Virus record (IMG/VR): IMGVR_UViG_3300022602_000303
Coordinates: 1 to 29,816 of that record
DNA from: a virus
Strand: one strand, 5' to 3'
Length of the DNA stretch: 29,816 nucleotides
Shown piece after piece: positions 11,859 to 26,548 of the stretch. The notes below the pieces were generated by a model. That model was given only the letters and a program-made list of their open reading frames with translations. It had not been told where the DNA came from and did no database searches. The position numbers were made by a program, and so were the translations under genes. How positions within the stretch are numbered: the stretch's first letter is position 1; each line of letters starts with the position of its first letter.

Positions 11859-13310
11859 TTATGAGTTTGCTGGTGGTGGGTTACGTGCAAACGTATCAAT
11901 CGATGTAGAGTATTTCTTAAATGCCGCTGGTTCAGATGGTGTCGCTGGAGTTTCAACTGCCATTGTATTATCAGGAGTAACGCTAGCAGGATCAAGATTT
12001 TCATGTCCTGCCCAAGGTTCTGTTTGTGGAACTCTAACTGGTTTTAATGCAGGGTCTGCTTTAGTAGCCTTTTTAGAGTTTAGATGTACATCTGGAGAGC
12101 CGTCTAATGCAATAGTACCGCCTGATAATATATGTGCATCAGCACCAGCAGTAATCTTACTGTCGGTACCCGATGTAGAATTCCAAGCAGAACCTGCTTG
12201 TTGATTAATATTAGTTCCAGCAGTAATATTAACATTCTCACCTGCTGAGAAATTTATATCACGATCTGCTGAGAAATTTATATCATTTCCTGTATGCACA
12301 CTGATGCTGTCTTCTGAGTAGATATCAATTTTTCCATTACTGGTCAATTCTATCCAAGCAGTTCCTCGACTGTTTGTAATATAAATTAAGTCTTCAGTAT
12401 TATGCAATAAAATCTGATGCCCAGTACGTGTTCTAATTCTAAATAATTCGTTATGAGGACGAGTTACATCGCCGCCTGTTTCATTTTCTTCTACTGCGGC
12501 ATAGTCAGGTGGACCGTCACCAGGTGCTTGTTTTCTTAAAAACTTATCATCACCGTCATCCATAACAAACGTTGTGCCGCCTAAACGACTTACTGGTGCG
12601 CCTGTTACTAAGTGTTCTGCTTTACCATAATTACCAGTCTGAGCGCCATCTTGTTTATCTAACGGTCCTGGTGTACTAATACCAAACACCATACTAGGTG
12701 CTTCACGTCTTGCGCTACTTGTTGTAATGCCCCTTGTATCATCTAGTAATAATCCTTGAGCATCTAAAACTTTAGTAAATGGATGTGTTGGTTTTTGTAA
12801 GGTAGTAGAGTCTGCAGGACTTGAATTGCTTGCATCTTTTTTATTATATTCTGCAACAGGAACTCGAGTGGCAGTATCTCCTGTGCTAGTTGTATATGCA
12901 CCTTCAACTACTGCTTCTGTTGCGGCAAGTCCTGGTGTCATAAAATCCATATTTTCATCAGGTACACAGCCAATCCAATAACCACGCTTAGGATCACCGT
13001 CGATAAAAATCACAATAACAGTATTACCTGGATCAGGTGGTATCATCCACATACCATAACTTTTTTGTGTATTGTTATAGTCAGTGCCTTGTCCGTTGTA
13101 AATTACATTAGTTTGTCCATAAAACGGACTCATATATTTTACTTGATGTAATTGACCTTCAGAACTTGAGCCACCGACAGGTCGTAAGATTTCTACTTCT
13201 AGTATTCCCATGTTAGTAGGATCTACTAGACTAACAACTTTAGCAAGGAAAGGACCGGGTTTAGGGTCAGGTTGTGCTATCGTACTTTGCGTTGAATCAT
13301 ATTCTGACAT
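11859..13310 (-). CDS. 5: Baseplate spike/hub protein gp5 without lysozyme domain
   Basis: The central membrane-piercing spike subunit. Residues of about 20-125 form the OB-fold (PFLAKVVSLVDPTNMGILEVE, YMSPFYG, MWMIPPDPGNTVIVIFIDGD, YWIGCVPDE). The C-terminal part is a triple-stranded beta-helix in about ten octads (DSISVHTG, NDINFSAD, RDINFSAG, ENVNITAG, TNINQQAG and so on), as in T4 gp5 and VgrG. Between them, where T4 gp5 has a lysozyme, there is a linker and a GGTTFVMDDGDDKF segment with no lysozyme catalytic pattern. A longer frame begins at 13325, but I chose ATG 13310: it overlaps the previous stop as TAATG and has GGAG seven bases upstream. The protein has 483 residues. Peptidoglycan digestion must come from another gene, if it happens at all. 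Confidence 0.92.
   Translation of the reverse strand: MSEYDSTQSTIAQPDPKPGPFLAKVVSLVDPTNMGILEVEILRPVGGSSSEGQLHQVKYMSPFYGQTNVIYNGQGTDYNNTQKSYGMWMIPPDPGNTVIVIFIDGDPKRGYWIGCVPDENMDFMTPGLAATEAVVEGAYTTSTGDTATRVPVAEYNKKDASNSSPADSTTLQKPTHPFTKVLDAQGLLLDDTRGITTSSARREAPSMVFGISTPGPLDKQDGAQTGNYGKAEHLVTGAPVSRLGGTTFVMDDGDDKFLRKQAPGDGPPDYAAVEENETGGDVTRPHNELFRIRTRTGHQILLHNTEDLIYITNSRGTAWIELTSNGKIDIYSEDSISVHTGNDINFSADRDINFSAGENVNITAGTNINQQAGSAWNSTSGTDSKITAGADAHILSGGTIALDGSPDVHLNSKKATKADPALKPVRVPQTEPWAGHENLDPASVTPDNTMAVETPATPSEPAAFKKYSTSIDTFARNPPPANS
12242..12285 (-). repeat. 24-base tandem duplication in gp5 beta-helix
   Basis: A 20-base identical segment (CTGCTGAGAAATTTATATCA on the plus strand) occurs at 12242-12261 and 12266-12285, a period of 24 bases or eight residues. 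It encodes the consecutive octads NDINFSAD and RDINFSAG. Near-identity at DNA level suggests a recent one-octad duplication that lengthens the spike helix by one step. Confidence 0.8.
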
Positions 13311-15643
13311 TAACCTTCTCCCCATCCATTATTGCCAACTGGTGCGCCTTTTGCATCAACTGGTCCAGTGTCTGTTGACGTTGCAGTTGGTGCAGATGCA
13401 TTTGAATTGTTCGGTGCGGCAGGCTGTGAAGCAGGTGTAAGAATACCATGCGTTGAACCTGTACCGTTTCCTTCTTGTAATGGACGTCTTTGTAATTGTA
13501 ATTTTTGTTTAAATTCATTCTTGCTAAATGTACTTTCAATCCTTCTCACCATGTACAGTCCGCTGAACATTGCAACAGGTGCGCTAGAGTTTTTACCAAA
13601 ATCATAAAGCCCTGTGCTTTGATTAATGTCCACTGGAGTTCTAAAATTTACTAAAATATCTACTTCTCCGCTTTGATGATTAATAGATCCATCTGCATTG
13701 AGATTAGAATATTGTGTAGGTTGTGCTGTATAGTTGCCTGTACCACTTTGCATAATAAAATACGGATCACCTATGATTTCTAAATCCAGTTTAATCATGT
13801 CCTGGCCTTTAGTTATACTATCATTAAATGCACGGGCCGCACGAGTTGCTTCAGTTTCATTACCACCGCCACCTAACTTATCAGATCCAAATAGACTTTT
13901 TGTAAATGAAATTGCTGTAGGAGTAGTGCCTGGAGTTTTTGAAGGCTGTTGTCCTACTGGTAAAGAATTACCAGATGTATCTTTTTCAGTTGCTCCTTCT
14001 GATCCTTTATTTTGTACGTCTTGCGTTTTCTTTCCTGCATCAGGCGACATTAAATTTTTAAAGTTGGCATGATATGCTATTTCAAATTTTATCACATCAA
14101 CGTTTTTACCAGTGTAGATATAATTGTATTGCTTTACTGCTTGTTTTTTAAGCTGTTCGTATCCAGGCGGTTTACTATTAGGAGCAACTTGTCCTGAACT
14201 TGCATGTACTTGATATTCGCATACACGATATACTAATAGTTTAGGTTTAGTTCCGGTTGCCGCATTTACTGGACCGTTGTTATACATTTGTACATCAATG
14301 TTCCACCATCCTTTATATCCTTCAGGAGTAATATTTGCAGGATCTAACGATTGTGTAATATAAGTGCTTTGCATAATCACTTGGCTAATTGCATTTAAGA
14401 TATCAGTATCTTGCCTAAACTTGAAATCACTAAACTGCGGATTAACTGGAGATTTAGAACGATGATTAATCTTGTTAGTTGCATCGTAAACATCCGTATC
14501 TTTACTCATAGGAGCATCACCTTTGCGGGTTTCATCAAACCCCATAGATGCTCGACCAATGCCATTTAATGAAGCACTACTTTGTATCAAATCTCCATTA
14601 GGACCTTGTGCAACAGACAATTTAGTTAATATACTTTGATCCACTTCAGCGATAGGACTTACTGTTGGAGAATTCTGTGTCTGATTAGCTTGGTCAGTTG
14701 ATTTAGAAGTTCCGCCTTTGTTAGTTGCTAATTCTTTAGGAAATATAATTAAAACTTGATCTTGTTTTGCAATCTTGTTAGTTACTGCTACATCTTTTAA
14801 TTTTTGATTAATAACTGCTTGGAGACTTTTCTCGCCAGTTTGTAATACTTCTTGTACTGTGCGGCCTGCAATTGCCATATCACTTTTAAATTTAGTATGG
14901 GCATCTGACAATGCGTGATGGTTATATACCAAACCTTGACAATCATAAACTGAACCTTGTTCATTAACTTTCATTGTAAGGTTAGTAAAGTGAAAAGGAA
15001 TTTGTCTACCAGTAGTCGGAATAGACGCCATAGATCCGTTTTCTTTATTACCTCTAAAATCTATAGTTAATAAAAACGGAGCTTCATTCCAGTTACCGTG
15101 GTCATTCTTTTGAGCGGCAGTTTGCAAAGCAATTGGCAATAAGCCCATGCTGTAAGGTTCTATTATTTTAAAAGTTATATTACCAACAGCATTTGTATTT
15201 GCGCCAGCTTCCATACCAATTTGAGAATTTATTTTTAAATCATCTATGTAAAATTCAAATGCTCCATAAGGAGTTTTTACACGGTTTGTAGGATCAATAC
15301 TTGCAGACTTACAAATTAATGGAGCTCTCATGCCTTTACGATAAGTGTTATCAGGATCTTGACACCACTTGTCTGTAATCGATGCTATGCCAATTACATA
15401 ATCATAACTTGCATAATCAAATAATGGATTTGGTAACGGTAGTTTAACACCTTTTAGATGTACTCCGCCTACACTAGATAATAATCCAGAAATTGCGCCA
15501 GTTACAGAAGACAAGCCGCTTGCTAGACCGCTACTTACTGCGGAGATTGCGCCGCCTACTGCACTTTCGGCACTATTAACTAAACCACCAATTGAGTCGG
15601 CGGCTGAGTTAATTGTTGCTCCTGGATCGTCAAACAGTCCCAT
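13310..15643 (-). CDS. Large virion structural protein, probable baseplate hub
   Basis: A 777-residue protein between gp53 and gp5. The first 60 residues are Ala/Gly/Ser-rich and weakly hydrophobic (repeated SVGG, SGLASGLSS). They are followed by a more ordered region with DYVIGIASITDKWCQDPDN, then YGAFEFYIDDLKI and FKIIEPYSMGLLPIALQTAA. The C-terminal third has GQDMIKLDLEIIGDPYFI and PVAMFSGLYMVRRIESTFS, which look like beta-rich hub or tube-type folds. Its place beside the spike gene is that of the hub (T4 gp27), and T4-like phages of aquatic bacteria carry similar large proteins here. The hub role is inferred from position; direct similarity to gp27 is not visible. ATG 15643 follows the gp53 stop by one base with AGGA upstream. 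The stop overlaps the gp5 ATG. Confidence 0.7.
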   Translation of the reverse strand: MGLFDDPGATINSAADSIGGLVNSAESAVGGAISAVSSGLASGLSSVTGAISGLLSSVGGVHLKGVKLPLPNPLFDYASYDYVIGIASITDKWCQDPDNTYRKGMRAPLICKSASIDPTNRVKTPYGAFEFYIDDLKINSQIGMEAGANTNAVGNITFKIIEPYSMGLLPIALQTAAQKNDHGNWNEAPFLLTIDFRGNKENGSMASIPTTGRQIPFHFTNLTMKVNEQGSVYDCQGLVYNHHALSDAHTKFKSDMAIAGRTVQEVLQTGEKSLQAVINQKLKDVAVTNKIAKQDQVLIIFPKELATNKGGTSKSTDQANQTQNSPTVSPIAEVDQSILTKLSVAQGPNGDLIQSSASLNGIGRASMGFDETRKGDAPMSKDTDVYDATNKINHRSKSPVNPQFSDFKFRQDTDILNAISQVIMQSTYITQSLDPANITPEGYKGWWNIDVQMYNNGPVNAATGTKPKLLVYRVCEYQVHASSGQVAPNSKPPGYEQLKKQAVKQYNYIYTGKNVDVIKFEIAYHANFKNLMSPDAGKKTQDVQNKGSEGATEKDTSGNSLPVGQQPSKTPGTTPTAISFTKSLFGSDKLGGGGNETEATRAARAFNDSITKGQDMIKLDLEIIGDPYFIMQSGTGNYTAQPTQYSNLNADGSINHQSGEVDILVNFRTPVDINQSTGLYDFGKNSSAPVAMFSGLYMVRRIESTFSKNEFKQKLQLQRRPLQEGNGTGSTHGILTPASQPAAPNNSNASAPTATSTDTGPVDAKGAPVGNNGWGEG

Positions 15644-21857: not shown

Positions 21858-23039
21858 ATGAAAGTTTATGAAATAATCTCAGAATCGCAAGTAGAAGAAG
21901 CAAGTCTAATGGCTTGGGGTTTAGGAAAACTTATGGGTGCAGGAGCAAAAGCTCTTAGTAAGCCTGAATTCCTAGATCGTGCCGGACAGCAAATTCTAGC
22001 AATTTCTAAACAGAAGGGAATTCCTTTCGCACAAGCCGCTGAAGAAGTATTCAAGAGTCCTGCTCAAGTGGCAAAAGATAATAAAGCAATTCAAAATCTA
22101 GTGGCCAAAACAGGAATGAGTCCTGAAAAAGCCGCTGAACGTCTAGGAGTTGATGCTCATCCATTTTATAGTGATATGAGTTTGAAAGCCAAAGCCATTA
22201 GTAAAGCAAAGACTTTAAGAGGTGGCGAAGTTTTAGCCAAAGGCGGAGAAGTAGCCGGCAAAGCAAAAGCAGTATTGGATCATGTGCCTACACTATTAAA
22301 CGCAATTGGTCTTGGTACGGTGTTTATTCCTCCATATTTGAAGTATAAAGAAAATATGGACAACGCTGAAGAGTATCTCAAGGCACGTGAATGGACACAA
22401 GAGCAATACAACCGCGTTGAGAATCAACAGATGAGTATTCTTATCGGTCAATGGGCCGCTGGATTACTTGTAAAAGGTATTGCAGGAAAACTTTTAAATA
22501 ATTCTGCAACTAGATTATTCCTTGGCAAGACTATTCCTGGACTAGCAGGAGGTGCCGCTGGCATTGCGGCCGTAACACAATGGCTACACAGTCCAGAAAA
22601 TGCAAAGTCATTAGCATCTGTAATGGCAAGTGATATTGTATCAGGTAATAATGAACTAGGGCTTGGTGTTGGTAGTATTGGCGCTGACGTTAAGAATATG
22701 TTGCCAGGTGGTAAGAGCCCAACAGCTCCTGATGCATCGACTAGCGGTGGGTCAGGCGGAGCACCAAGTGGTGCAACTGGCACAGGTAGTGCGTCAGATA
22801 TTGATGCAACTTCAAATAAACCTGCGGCAGGCACACAAACTACTACACCAGCAACTACACAATCGGCTAATGGAAAACAGATGTGGACTAATGATCCTAA
22901 CGCTGTAACAAATTATGATATATCTGGTTGGGTTGATTATCCAAATAGAGATGGATACATCATGGATCCTAAAAATCCTTCTAGAATATTACCAAAGCCA
23001 ACAGGTTGGACTCCTGGATATACTCCAGCAAATGATTAA
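21858..23039 (+). CDS. Probable internal head protein with capsid-targeting N-terminus
   Basis: A 393-residue protein I do not recognise by family. Its N-terminus MKVYEIISESQVEEA resembles the capsid-targeting sequence of T4 internal head proteins (MKTYQEFI-type). It contains ISE followed by S, fitting the prohead protease gp21 cleavage rule (Ile or Leu, any residue, Glu). Residues 15-140 are helical with repeats of Ala/Lys. A hydrophobic stretch (about 195-250: MSILIGQWAAGLLVKGIAG, LAGGAAGIAAV) could bury in a membrane or core. A Gly/Ser/Thr-rich linker (about 285-340) precedes a Trp/Pro-rich tail (SGWVDYPNRDGYIMDP). Packaging in the head and possible injection with DNA are inferred. Its stop overlaps that of the convergent gp26-associated frame at TTAA. 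Confidence 0.75.
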   Translation: MKVYEIISESQVEEASLMAWGLGKLMGAGAKALSKPEFLDRAGQQILAISKQKGIPFAQAAEEVFKSPAQVAKDNKAIQNLVAKTGMSPEKAAERLGVDAHPFYSDMSLKAKAISKAKTLRGGEVLAKGGEVAGKAKAVLDHVPTLLNAIGLGTVFIPPYLKYKENMDNAEEYLKAREWTQEQYNRVENQQMSILIGQWAAGLLVKGIAGKLLNNSATRLFLGKTIPGLAGGAAGIAAVTQWLHSPENAKSLASVMASDIVSGNNELGLGVGSIGADVKNMLPGGKSPTAPDASTSGGSGGAPSGATGTGSASDIDATSNKPAAGTQTTTPATTQSANGKQMWTNDPNAVTNYDISGWVDYPNRDGYIMDPKNPSRILPKPTGWTPGYTPAND

Positions 23040-23275
23040 AGCAAAGGCATCTGAGAAATTTTAGTAGCTTCTATGTTATCGTTGATAACTGAATAGATTG
23101 CTTCTCGGTCTTCATGACTATAGATGTACATTAGATCATTTACAGTAACGCCGCCTCGCATATACCAACTGATTCTAAATAAATCTTCTTTGAATCTTTT
23201 TACTTCTTGTTCCAGCCTAACTAATTTGTCTTGAATTTCAGGGACGGTTAAATTAATTAGGCTTTGCCGAAAAAA
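23036..23275 (-). CDS. Frameshift extension of gp26 (tail-assembly-chaperone-like)
   Basis: This frame overlaps the end of gp26. It is open from a TAA at 23278-23276 to its own stop at 23038-23036 and has no ATG, GTG or TTG before the conserved-looking part begins. It reads PEIQDKLVRLEQEVKRFKED, then LFRISWYMRGGVTVNDLMYI and YSHEDREAIYSVINDN. That is a compact helical protein whose WYMRGGVT motif I recall from small proteins beside gp26 in T4-like phages of aquatic bacteria. A -1 slip at T TTT TTC (23275-23269) would add 77 residues after Phe272 of gp26, giving a 349-residue fusion. The alternative is initiation at the rare ATT codon, for which there is no ribosome site. Coding character is convincing; the mode of expression is inferred. 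Confidence 0.75.
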   Translation of the reverse strand, partial: FFRQSLINLTVPEIQDKLVRLEQEVKRFKEDLFRISWYMRGGVTVNDLMYIYSHEDREAIYSVINDNIEATKISQMPLL

Positions 23276-24084
23276 TTACTTTGGTCTAATTCTAAAGTTA
23301 AGCTAGTTTCGGTTCCGCATGTATCACATTTTACTGGAAACTCTGGAGTCTTCCAACTATCTCTAGTCTTTTCAATATGATCTTTAATTGCATCATAAAC
23401 ACTCTTGTCGCAATTACTTAACCACTCGCTGATATACTCTGGTTCTGTTACAACAGTTGTATCAACTTGTACACTTTCAACACTAGCTTTATAAAGTTCG
23501 CTTTGTACTAAAGATAAATCTTTAAACAATTCATTAATTATTTTTTGTTGCTCGGCTTGATCATCAATTGTTTCAGTTTGCTTTAATTTTTGTTGCAATT
23601 TAAAATTCTTAAGATTAAACTCTGTACTTTCTTTGTAAGTTAGTGGTTTAGTCTTGATAACCATCTTGTCTAAATTGATTGTGTTGTCATACTTAAAGTT
23701 ACTGTAATGCTCAATGATTCTACTTAGATCTAAATCGTAATCGTTTTCAGTTCCGCATTCAGGACATTTATGTGTAACTGCCATTTCATTGCCAAATGTG
23801 GCAATTCGTATAGCGGCAAATATTGCACTAGTATCTAATACACTTACTTCCCATGCATCTTTAATTGCAGGACAGCAACTTTCAATGACTTTAACAGAGC
23901 TTTCTCCGGTCAACATAGCGTCTGGAGTTTTTAGAATAATCTCATCCATTCCAGTCATACCGTAGATAGGCATATTTGTAGCATCGCCTTGGAAGGATCC
24001 TAATTTTTGAAAAAGTCCTTGGCTAGGCAATCTAATGTAAATCTTAGGCTGTCTAAAGTATTGTTGTAAGGGATTTTGTGGCAT
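23257..24084 (-). CDS. 26: Baseplate hub/tail assembly protein gp26
   Basis: A 275-residue protein of the T4 gp26-type baseplate assembly family. The start NPLQQYFRQPKIYIRLPSQG and the run MPIYGMTGMDEIILKTPDAM are the family hallmarks. Two CxxC pairs (CPEC at residues 107-110; CDTC at 253-256) probably bind one zinc as a ribbon. Between them is a charged, helical stretch (about 150-200). In T4, gp26 helps build the hub around the tape measure. Here the gene is divergent from the tape measure, and its end carries a slippery heptamer leading into a second frame, as in tail-assembly chaperones of other phages. ATG 24084 has GGAG six bases upstream and a TATAAATA box at 24121-24114. Confidence 0.88.
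   Translation of the reverse strand: MPQNPLQQYFRQPKIYIRLPSQGLFQKLGSFQGDATNMPIYGMTGMDEIILKTPDAMLTGESSVKVIESCCPAIKDAWEVSVLDTSAIFAAIRIATFGNEMAVTHKCPECGTENDYDLDLSRIIEHYSNFKYDNTINLDKMVIKTKPLTYKESTEFNLKNFKLQQKLKQTETIDDQAEQQKIINELFKDLSLVQSELYKASVESVQVDTTVVTEPEYISEWLSNCDKSVYDAIKDHIEKTRDSWKTPEFPVKCDTCGTETSLTLELDQSNFFGKA
23269..23275 (-). promoter_or_regulatory. Putative -1 ribosomal frameshift site
   Basis: Minus-strand heptamer T TTT TTC in the gp26 zero frame (codons AAT TTT TTC GGC), four codons before the gp26 stop. It matches the X XXY YYZ slippery rule and shifts reading exactly into the downstream start-less frame. GGC-AAA-GCC just after it can form only a very small hairpin; a larger stimulatory structure was not evident. 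Confidence 0.7.
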
Positions 24085-24113: not shown

Positions 24114-24121
24114 TATTTATA
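24114..24121 (-). promoter_or_regulatory. Late promoter box for gp26
   Basis: Perfect TATAAATA on the minus strand, 29 bases before the gp26 ATG, with GGAG in the leader. It is the only exact match to the T4 late consensus noted in front of a gene in this window. Confidence 0.75.
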
Positions 24122-24145: not shown

Positions 24146-26548
24146 ATGGCAGATTCGAATCAATCCAGTGGCAATAGTGCTCCAGCCGATAAAGAAAAAC
24201 TTGGCTTTATAGCCAATGCCGCCGCACAATTTAACAATATTGTTAAAGAAGGTGCTCCGCTAGCATTAGGGTTTAATAAATTGTCCGGCGGTGTTGAAGG
24301 AACACGAACTGCATTAAACTTATTCCAGGGCGGATTGGATAAAGTATCTCCTGCGTTGGCTAAAATGGCCGGCGGATTAGGTGATGCTGTATTAAAGCAA
24401 AAAGAAAATATGGACAAGGCTAGCGAACAGCTAGGTATTGGATCTAATAACATTGGAAAGTTTGTACGCATGGCAGGAGAAGCTGGCGTAACTACTGAAC
24501 AATTTACAAATATTATTAAAAATTCTAGTAACGGCATGGCCGGCTTAGGCAGTAATGCACAACGTTCAGCAGAAATATTCAGTAAGGTATCTAAAGAAGT
24601 TTTAGAAAGCGATGTTGGTAAACAAATGCAAGAGATTGGCGTTAGTTCAGAAGAGCTAGCAAAGGTTACTGCATTACAATTGAATAATGGATTTAAAAAT
24701 AGAATACAAACAGAAGCAGATCAAAAAGCTCTAGCTGTTTCTGCACAAATGCTAGCAAAAGAAATCGATGCAACTAGTAAAGTAACTGGTCAAAGCAGAG
24801 AAGCTATCATGAATACTATTAAGGCTGAAGAAGACAGACCAGAATCCATAGTAGAAATGATCAACATGAGTAAAGAAGAAGCTGATCAGTATGAAAGAAC
24901 TTTACAAAAGATGGGAGGCATGGGTGCTGGTTTAGAAAATCTAACAACAGAACTAGTATCAGGTGGTGTAAGAACTGAAAAAGCTAGTGCTCAAATGACT
25001 GTGTTAGGTACAGCCGGTACGCAATACGAAGCGGCTGTCAATCAGATGCAACAAGCTAGAACAGGTGCTGAGAAGAAAGCCGCTGAAGAAGCGTTAGAAG
25101 TAGCCAAAGCAAAAATTAACGAACGTATGGCAAGTCAAGAGTACCGAGACTTTATAAGAAATGGTACTGCTGAACAACAAGCCGCCGCTAAAGAACTGAT
25201 TAAAGAAAATACTGGACTTAAAGCATCAGTAACAGCCGCTAGAGAAGCTAATGGCGACTTTGTGCAAGGCGCAAAGAATCAAGCTCTTCAAGCTAAAAAT
25301 ATGCAAGAAGGCAAGACTGATAAAGGTCAAGTCGATGACGGAGCAAAGACTGCTCAGGATTTAAACAAGATTAATATTCAAGCTACATTAGCCGCAGGCG
25401 GTATGGCTAAAGAATTTGAAAATGTTAATAAGAATCTTGCCAAGAGTCCAGAATTTATCAATGCATTTAACAAAGCATTAGATTATGCAGGCCGTAATGC
25501 AACTATGGCTGATGCACAGAAAAAAATACACGACGCTCCAGCTAATATCTATAAAGCCGGTAAGAGTGCATTAACTGGTGGAGAAGCTACTGAAAGACCT
25601 GTGGCCGGTGCAAATCCTACAGGAGTTAGTGAGACTGGCGACGTAGTAAAGCGTCCGACACACGGTGACGGAGGGATTATTAAAGGTCCAGAGCTAGCAG
25701 TTATCTCAGAAAAAGAACCTGAAGCAGTTATACCGTTATCTCAAATGAAAGAAGTTGTAGGTAATTTAACATCTACCGTAAGTTCGGCTACTGGAGCAAG
25801 TCCTAAAGGTGCAGGAGGTGACGAAGAAGCATTGATTGCCAAAGCTCAAGCCGCTCTTAAAATTATTAAAGAACACGGCGAAGGATCATTTGATACACAA
25901 ATAAAAATTACCGCAAGCGGACATTTACGTCTTCGTGAACAATTTGACGCCGACAACGACAGGATGCAATCTCTCGGTGACGAAAGTTCTAGAGAACGTA
26001 TTGCAGAACTAGTTAAGCAAGCAGAAGCATTAACAGCTAAAGATAAAGAAGTTTCAGTTAAACGTGTAGAAGCAGAAAAAATCAACGTTGTAGATCAAAC
26101 AACTAAAATAGCCAAAGTAAAATCAGATTCAGTAGACGACTTGATTAAAAAGGATATGGCTAACGTGCAAAATACAGCAAAAGCTGTAACTGCACCTATG
26201 ACAAGCATGTTAGGCGACATGTTTAATCCAAAAATTATCAATACAAACCCAAAAGATTTTAAAGAAGCACCTAAAACATCTGAATCAGTGCCTAAGAAAG
26301 CAGAAGAAGATCATAAAAAAGAAGCTGAAGCAAAGGCAAAAGCAGACGCAGAGCACAAAGAAAAAGCAAAAGCCGCAGATACTAATAAGGCACCAGCTAG
26401 TGCAACAGCTAAAGATGCTACCATGAACGACCTGAAAGACCAATTAGTACTGTTAAATAAGCATATGACCCAATTAATCACACATAGTGAGACTACTGCC
26501 GACGCTTCAAGCAAAGCCGCTAGAGCTAATCACGGTAGTAGAACCTAA
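24146..26548 (+). CDS. Tail tape-measure protein (gp29 equivalent)
   Basis: An 800-residue, Ala/Lys-rich, mostly helical protein. Residues of about 505-533 carry the tape-measure hallmark GDGGIIKGPELAVISEKEPE followed by AVIPL, seen near the processed or conserved end of many tape-measure proteins. Earlier parts are heptad-like helices with phage-tail style GG and NN turns (FNKLSGGVEGTR, LTTELVSGGVRTEKASAQM). The last 120 residues are highly charged (KKEAEAKAKADAEHKEKAKA) and end in a helix (MNDLKDQLVLLNKHMTQLI). At roughly 1.5 angstrom per residue, it would set a tail near 120 nm at most, a family rule of thumb. T4 gp29 is shorter (590). AGGA lies seven bases upstream; the portal gene follows after 12 bases. 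Confidence 0.82.
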   Translation: MADSNQSSGNSAPADKEKLGFIANAAAQFNNIVKEGAPLALGFNKLSGGVEGTRTALNLFQGGLDKVSPALAKMAGGLGDAVLKQKENMDKASEQLGIGSNNIGKFVRMAGEAGVTTEQFTNIIKNSSNGMAGLGSNAQRSAEIFSKVSKEVLESDVGKQMQEIGVSSEELAKVTALQLNNGFKNRIQTEADQKALAVSAQMLAKEIDATSKVTGQSREAIMNTIKAEEDRPESIVEMINMSKEEADQYERTLQKMGGMGAGLENLTTELVSGGVRTEKASAQMTVLGTAGTQYEAAVNQMQQARTGAEKKAAEEALEVAKAKINERMASQEYRDFIRNGTAEQQAAAKELIKENTGLKASVTAAREANGDFVQGAKNQALQAKNMQEGKTDKGQVDDGAKTAQDLNKINIQATLAAGGMAKEFENVNKNLAKSPEFINAFNKALDYAGRNATMADAQKKIHDAPANIYKAGKSALTGGEATERPVAGANPTGVSETGDVVKRPTHGDGGIIKGPELAVISEKEPEAVIPLSQMKEVVGNLTSTVSSATGASPKGAGGDEEALIAKAQAALKIIKEHGEGSFDTQIKITASGHLRLREQFDADNDRMQSLGDESSRERIAELVKQAEALTAKDKEVSVKRVEAEKINVVDQTTKIAKVKSDSVDDLIKKDMANVQNTAKAVTAPMTSMLGDMFNPKIINTNPKDFKEAPKTSESVPKKAEEDHKKEAEAKAKADAEHKEKAKAADTNKAPASATAKDATMNDLKDQLVLLNKHMTQLITHSETTADASSKAARANHGSRT

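Follow-up and report, generated by a model that had tools for sequence, protein, structure and literature searches.

The -1 frameshift that pairs a short with a long form is a mechanism of known kind, classical in lambda-type tail assembly chaperones; in lambda gpG/gpGT, and likewise in P2 E/E', a start-less downstream frame supplies a small C-terminal domain. The chaperones of T4-like phages have reportedly been identified by Vladimirov, Gautam and Davidson (Virology 2022), in a paper whose title argues for a non-frameshift mechanism. A review describes chaperone frameshifting as a conserved trait of long-tailed phages, with T4 excepted (PMC5009743), and the authors of PRFect summarise the 2022 Virology work as showing that some T4-like phages encode the short and the long form in genes of their own (PMC10885494). 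For Vandenendeviridae and Andersonviridae, an excerpt of the paper on phage Adele describes a -1 shift at a conserved poly-T, GTTTTT, with a downstream frame for which annotations usually give a hypothetical gene of its own, and credits poly-T slip signals in the chaperone genes of T4-like phages to the 2022 Virology work (PMC12846349). Part of the superfamily picture given below may already be published; our search of the open-access literature found no paper on a gp26 frameshift in jumbo phages. Here we describe such a candidate site in a viral window of 29,816 nucleotides (IMG/VR virus record IMGVR_UViG_3300022602_000303, positions 1 to 29,816), in which gp26, a member of the T4 gp26 family, overlaps a start-less frame with the coding potential for a small C-terminal domain, as in lambda and P2. 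The window differs from lambda gpG/gpGT in its protein family, with no sequence link detected, and has the heptamer T TTT TTC and a conserved downstream stem. It resembles the Adele-type systems in its poly-T and in the separate annotation of the downstream frame in its relatives; those systems belong to other phage families, and the excerpt makes no mention of a conserved downstream stem (PMC12846349). We propose, with a probability of roughly 0.93, that a gp26-T fusion arises by programmed -1 ribosomal frameshifting and completes a tail-assembly-chaperone pair like lambda G/GT.

All elements of the gp26 locus lie on the minus strand. The short form of gp26 (23257-24084; 275 residues) starts at an ATG at 24084, with TGGAG just upstream at 24095-24091, and stops at TAA 23259-23257. 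Its last codons are AGT AAT TTT TTC GGC AAA GCC TAA, so that the gene end and slippery heptamer named in the first-pass annotation of this DNA are confirmed, the heptamer T TTT TTC occupying 23275-23269. The same annotation had placed a TAA of the -1 frame one base upstream of the heptamer; instead, this TAA (23278-23276) abuts the heptamer and shuts the frame upstream. The -1 frame (23036-23275) has 79 codons and reads FFRQSLINL...WYMRGGVT...MPLL, and its TAA stop (23038-23036) overlaps the stop of a convergent gene at 21858-23039. Its first ATG is residue 39, the M of WYM, with no ATG, GTG or TTG before it, as had been noted at first pass. Joined at the heptamer, residues 1-272 of gp26 and 77 residues of this frame give a predicted frameshift product of 349 residues. 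The spacer after the heptamer is 5 nucleotides (23264-23268), followed by the arms of a putative stimulatory stem, AGCCTAATTAATTT (5' arm, 23250-23263) and AAATTAGTTAGGCT (3' arm, 23214-23227).

The gp26 of the window belongs to the T4 gp26 family, as profile searches match it to PF12322 (E 8.9e-16, 58.7 bits against a cut-off of 24.5) and match its residues 3-272 to PHROG 150, baseplate hub (E 4.3e-20). In a Foldseek search, its AlphaFold model hits baseplate hub assembly proteins of T4-like phages (E 8e-23). Two CxxC pairs, at residues 107/110 and 253/256, are invariant in 40 relatives and likely form a zinc site. The extension is predicted by AlphaFold2 to be all-helical with a mean predicted local distance difference test score of 90; its sequence gave no significant match in Pfam or PDB sequence searches, and its model gave no structural match with E <0.001 in BFVD and only middling Z-scores in the PDB. 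The sole TATAAATA in the window lies at 24114-24121 on the minus strand, about 30 nucleotides upstream of the gp26 ATG, against a chance expectation of about 5. We take this motif to be the T4 late promoter consensus; as promoter evidence taken alone, its single occurrence here proves little.

A tblastn search with gp26 hit 64 phage records. The similarity is distant throughout, at best about 30% identity, and most records come from jumbo members of the T4 superfamily, among them Atu_ph07, RaK2, 121Q, GAP32, CBB, PA5oct and SCTP-2; an IMG/VR search added 103 gp26 loci. The comparison set drawn up from jumbo T4-superfamily phages and IMG/VR contigs comprises 70 non-redundant lineages, which are related by descent, so that the counts below are not independent trials. 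Wherever a locus contains gp26 together with the extension, the latter is encoded in the -1 frame relative to gp26. This comparison of gp26 3' ends, suggested at first pass, finds the heptamer in phase in 70/70 lineages, as TTTTTTC in 68 and TTTTTTT in two (XacN1 and RAS14), always after a codon ending in T. The heptamer is likewise present in 23/23 loci retrieved with gp26 patterns that exclude it. The two junction Phe codons are TTT in 69/69 (100%) and TTC in 67/69 (97%), against a TTT:TTC ratio of 550:184 elsewhere in gp26; at other conserved gp26 residues having a synonymous choice the share of the top codon is 0.33-0.85, and no synonymous site of the gene varies less than the two junction codons. 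Immediately after the heptamer, the 0-frame codon encodes V, A, G, E or D in 67/70 lineages, its first G alone being kept, whereas the -1 frame at the same point reads Arg CGN in 67/70, with T, A, C and G at the third base in 19, 17, 16 and 15 lineages. That the 0-frame residue varies while the -1-frame Arg is kept indicates that the -1 frame is constrained from exactly the heptamer onward. Within the window's clade, variability of the -1 frame by codon position (0.29, 0.16 and 0.49) is of the coding type. The distance from the heptamer to the point upstream where a stop closes the -1 frame varies between lineages and is 0 nucleotides in ten of them, the window included.

These data also bear on whether the extension could be a separate gene, translated by reinitiation or from a non-AUG start near the gp26 stop. 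The model for such a gene is T4 26', which starts at an internal AUU and is annotated in T4 as a coding sequence, and ATT does occur in the window extension, at residues 7 and 14. An ATG falls within the first 12 extension residues in 4/70 lineages (Atu_ph07, Phosso, 121Q and L102), and two of these ATGs overlap the gp26 stop; a normal start in relatives is what the first-pass annotation had thought would tell against frameshifting, yet the four share no position and all keep the heptamer. In 33/70 lineages the first standard start lies past residue 36 or is missing, PA5oct having none at all, and no start codon is conserved. A conserved non-AUG start was also sought and dismissed, the Ile codon at residue 7 not being conserved across clades. 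Moreover, FFR is kept upstream of any possible start, and a downstream start would have no need of the invariant synonymous codons of the heptamer. We therefore regard a separate gene as very improbable and frameshifting as the reading that these junctions favour.

In none of the phage records inspected is the joined gene annotated; the extension is absent, or begun at an internal or stop-overlapping codon. PHROG 18291 (59 residues, function unknown) matches the downstream part of the extension in three loci (L003, L004 and L109) and is probably an annotation artefact of internal starts. The text on phAPEC6 virion proteomics contained no baseplate-hub entry that we could find.

The putative stimulatory stem was not part of the first-pass annotation, nor were the superfamily spread and the relation to T4 gp51 considered below. 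Stimulatory structures are common, though not obligatory, 5-9 nucleotides downstream of -1 frameshift sites, and in the window's clade a covarying stem lies at 5-6 nucleotides. The window's own stem has 14 base pairs (z = -3.5); the DNA alignment of its clade displays the complementary arms AGCCTAATT and AGTTAGGCT, and the RNAalifold consensus stem has 10 base pairs, with 98.4% of cells paired. Four pairs have changes on both sides, a number reached by 3/500 column shuffles, and 14 cells have changes on both sides, a number reached by 0/500; pairing collapses once the partners are slid. Codon choice in the stem arms is also restricted, with Ser5 encoded by AGC in 41/41 (22% of other Ser codons) and Arg21 by AGG in 36/36 (4% of other Arg codons), and two synonymous sites covary (Fisher p = 0.0003, counting related sequences as independent). 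Different stems, of 8-15 base pairs at 3-6 nucleotides, are found in Atu_ph07, Phosso, the L096-L106 group, XacN1 and PA5oct; in the four named phages the distance is about 6 nucleotides.

The stem and the phase of the heptamer together speak to a second alternative, in which the polymerase rather than the ribosome slips at the T6 run and so joins the frames. A homopolymer run does exist here, and T7-type motifs may make polymerase slip (PMC4066793). Most of the runs, however, have six T only, the T TTT TTC phase is fixed whereas a polymerase would be indifferent to it, and a conserved RNA stem stands downstream at ribosome-like spacing. To transcriptional slippage we accordingly give scarcely any weight. 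For ribosomal slippage, U_UUU_UUC and U_UUU_UUU belong to the H_HH.U_UU.Y class that is efficient in E. coli, where each gave >0.10% frameshifting without stimulators (PMC4066793). At the level of sequence, the comparison establishes the slip site and the phase it keeps, reveals the stem, and shows that selection acts on the -1 frame from the heptamer onward. It strongly supports the earlier proposal that a -1 frameshift joins gp26 to the start-less frame; the slippage itself and its rate we infer.

Beyond the jumbo phages, other T4-superfamily genomes were searched with PHROG 150; in S-PM2, HTVC008M and phiM12, a second, short match, to the end of the profile, lies after gp26. Their junctions read TCT TTT TTC GCA TAA, AGT TTT TTT TAA and AAT TTT TTT ACT, respectively, and those of KVP40 and ACP17 read GAT TTT TTC GTA TAA; a -1 extension is present in each of the five. 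Among 80 cyanophage-type IMG/VR loci retrieved with S-PM2 gp26, the heptamer is present in 80/80, as T TTT TTC in 78 and T TTT TTG in two, and the extension has 61-68 residues in 77/80 and is short in 3/80. In locus L188 and two other cyanophage-type loci, the heptamer is followed by a -1 extension that ends after 12-14 residues. Two relatives with a single gp26-family gene lack the in-phase T6 site, an absence that the first-pass annotation had likewise thought would count against its proposal. One is Aeromonas phage phiA8-29 (Ackermannviridae), which has an extension-like -1 frame and, in place of the canonical heptamer, AGA CTT TTC ACT GTC TGA. The other is Bacillus phage SP-15 (KT624200), whose gp26 relative reads GAA TTT TTT CAC, with the poly-T in another phase, and whose gp51-like extension sits in the +1 (or -2) frame, so that this lineage appears to use a different shift direction. 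A +1 shift of the SP-15 type was checked for the window and does not apply.

T4 itself has two members of the family as separate genes, the short gp26 and the long gp51, whereas each jumbo phage tested has one, a set that includes two IMG/VR records of the window's clade (345 and 356 kb). Near its end T4 gp26 (Straboviridae) has TTC TTT GAG, which is not slippery, where the window has T TTT TTC; CP220, like T4, has the long form as a separate gene. In pairwise hhalign comparisons, the cyanophage extension profile aligns with the C-terminus of T4 gp51 (probability 96, E 3.4e-9), and the fused product of the window aligns with gp51 end to end (E 3.6e-5, probability 71), the junction FF falling at the gp51 position VF/IF. 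In a FastTree of the domain common to these proteins, T4-type gp26 and gp51 are sisters (support 0.75) and adjoin KVP40 gp26 (0.87); this placement agrees, with moderate support, with a duplication that took place inside Straboviridae and started from a frameshifting ancestor. We think it probable that the gp26 frameshift is the ancestral T4-superfamily route to the chaperone pair, and that T4, with its close kin, departs from it because the gene was duplicated within Straboviridae, later than the split from KVP40, and the long form was thereby frozen as gp51; clade-specific stems would have been rebuilt at a similar distance while the heptamer stayed unchanged.

In the mechanism that we propose, ribosomes translating gp26 would meet T TTT TTC with tRNA-Phe in both the P and A sites, and the stem starting 5 nucleotides downstream would make them pause. 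A fraction of the paired tRNAs would slip one base back onto TTT TTT with pairing retained, and those ribosomes would continue in the -1 frame, bypassing the gp26 stop that ends 12 nucleotides past the heptamer, to yield the 349-residue fusion of gp26 residues 1-272 with a 77-residue helical domain; the others would yield the 275-residue gp26. By analogy with lambda G and GT, the short form would serve as a coat on the tape measure and the long form, made less often, would recruit tube subunits, and T4 presumably obtains the same roles from gp26 and gp51. Homology to the T4 gp26/gp51 family, whose members the 2022 Virology paper reportedly treats as chaperones of T4-like phages, makes a chaperone role of gp26 and its fusion likely, and on the same basis favours the first-pass view of the pair as the T4-like chaperone equivalent; the sequence arrangement, a short and a long form with a common N-terminal domain, is that of a chaperone pair.

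Several observations weigh against this interpretation. The chaperone role is drawn from homology, and the gp26 model matched no solved chaperone fold among the chains compared. The extension of the window's clade alone aligns weakly with T4 gp51 in pairwise hhalign (E 0.05). A Shine-Dalgarno-like stimulator upstream of the heptamer is found in just 3/70 relatives, and the enterobacterial jumbo phages RaK2, GAP32, Munch, Hallingskeid and BF keep the heptamer with no convincing downstream stem, so that the stimulatory stem is not universal among heptamer carriers.

The frameshift could also be real while the role of gp26 and its fusion is confined to the baseplate hub and does not extend to tube assembly on the tape measure, a proposal that concerns the role alone and is compatible with the mechanism. 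T4 gp26 and gp51 are classically termed hub assembly chaperones (PMC3004832), and the tape-measure identity of the gp26 neighbour is weak. The first-pass annotation had set the frameshift beside the tape measure; gp26 does adjoin a divergent plus-strand gene (24146-26548; 800 residues), which matches the tape measure family PHROG 1535 only weakly (E 0.0055) and could encode a tape measure or another tail protein. The RaK2 gene in the equivalent position is annotated as similar to tape measure, and tblastn of the neighbour against phage records gave no match. In lambda, by contrast with this divergent orientation, the chaperone genes lie upstream of the tape measure. Short and long forms at a conserved slip site are, however, a tail assembly chaperone hallmark (PMC5009743), and the 2022 Virology title, in the form that PMC10885494 cites, names T4-like chaperones as such. 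A hub-only role is thus unlikely in our estimate, and a tail assembly chaperone pair remains the role that we favour. Elsewhere in the window, the minus-strand gene at 13310-15643 encodes a 777-residue protein that matches the virion structural protein family PHROG 11190 (E 1e-27), with a further match, below cut-off, to the viral zinc-binding domain PF03728.

For the T4 superfamily, these data indicate that most sampled lineages, namely jumbo phages, cyanophages, a pelagiphage, and rhizobial and Vibrio T4-likes, carry the frameshift. T4 gp51 looks like a frozen frameshift product, and many annotated genomes hold a truncated or missing gene at the extension.
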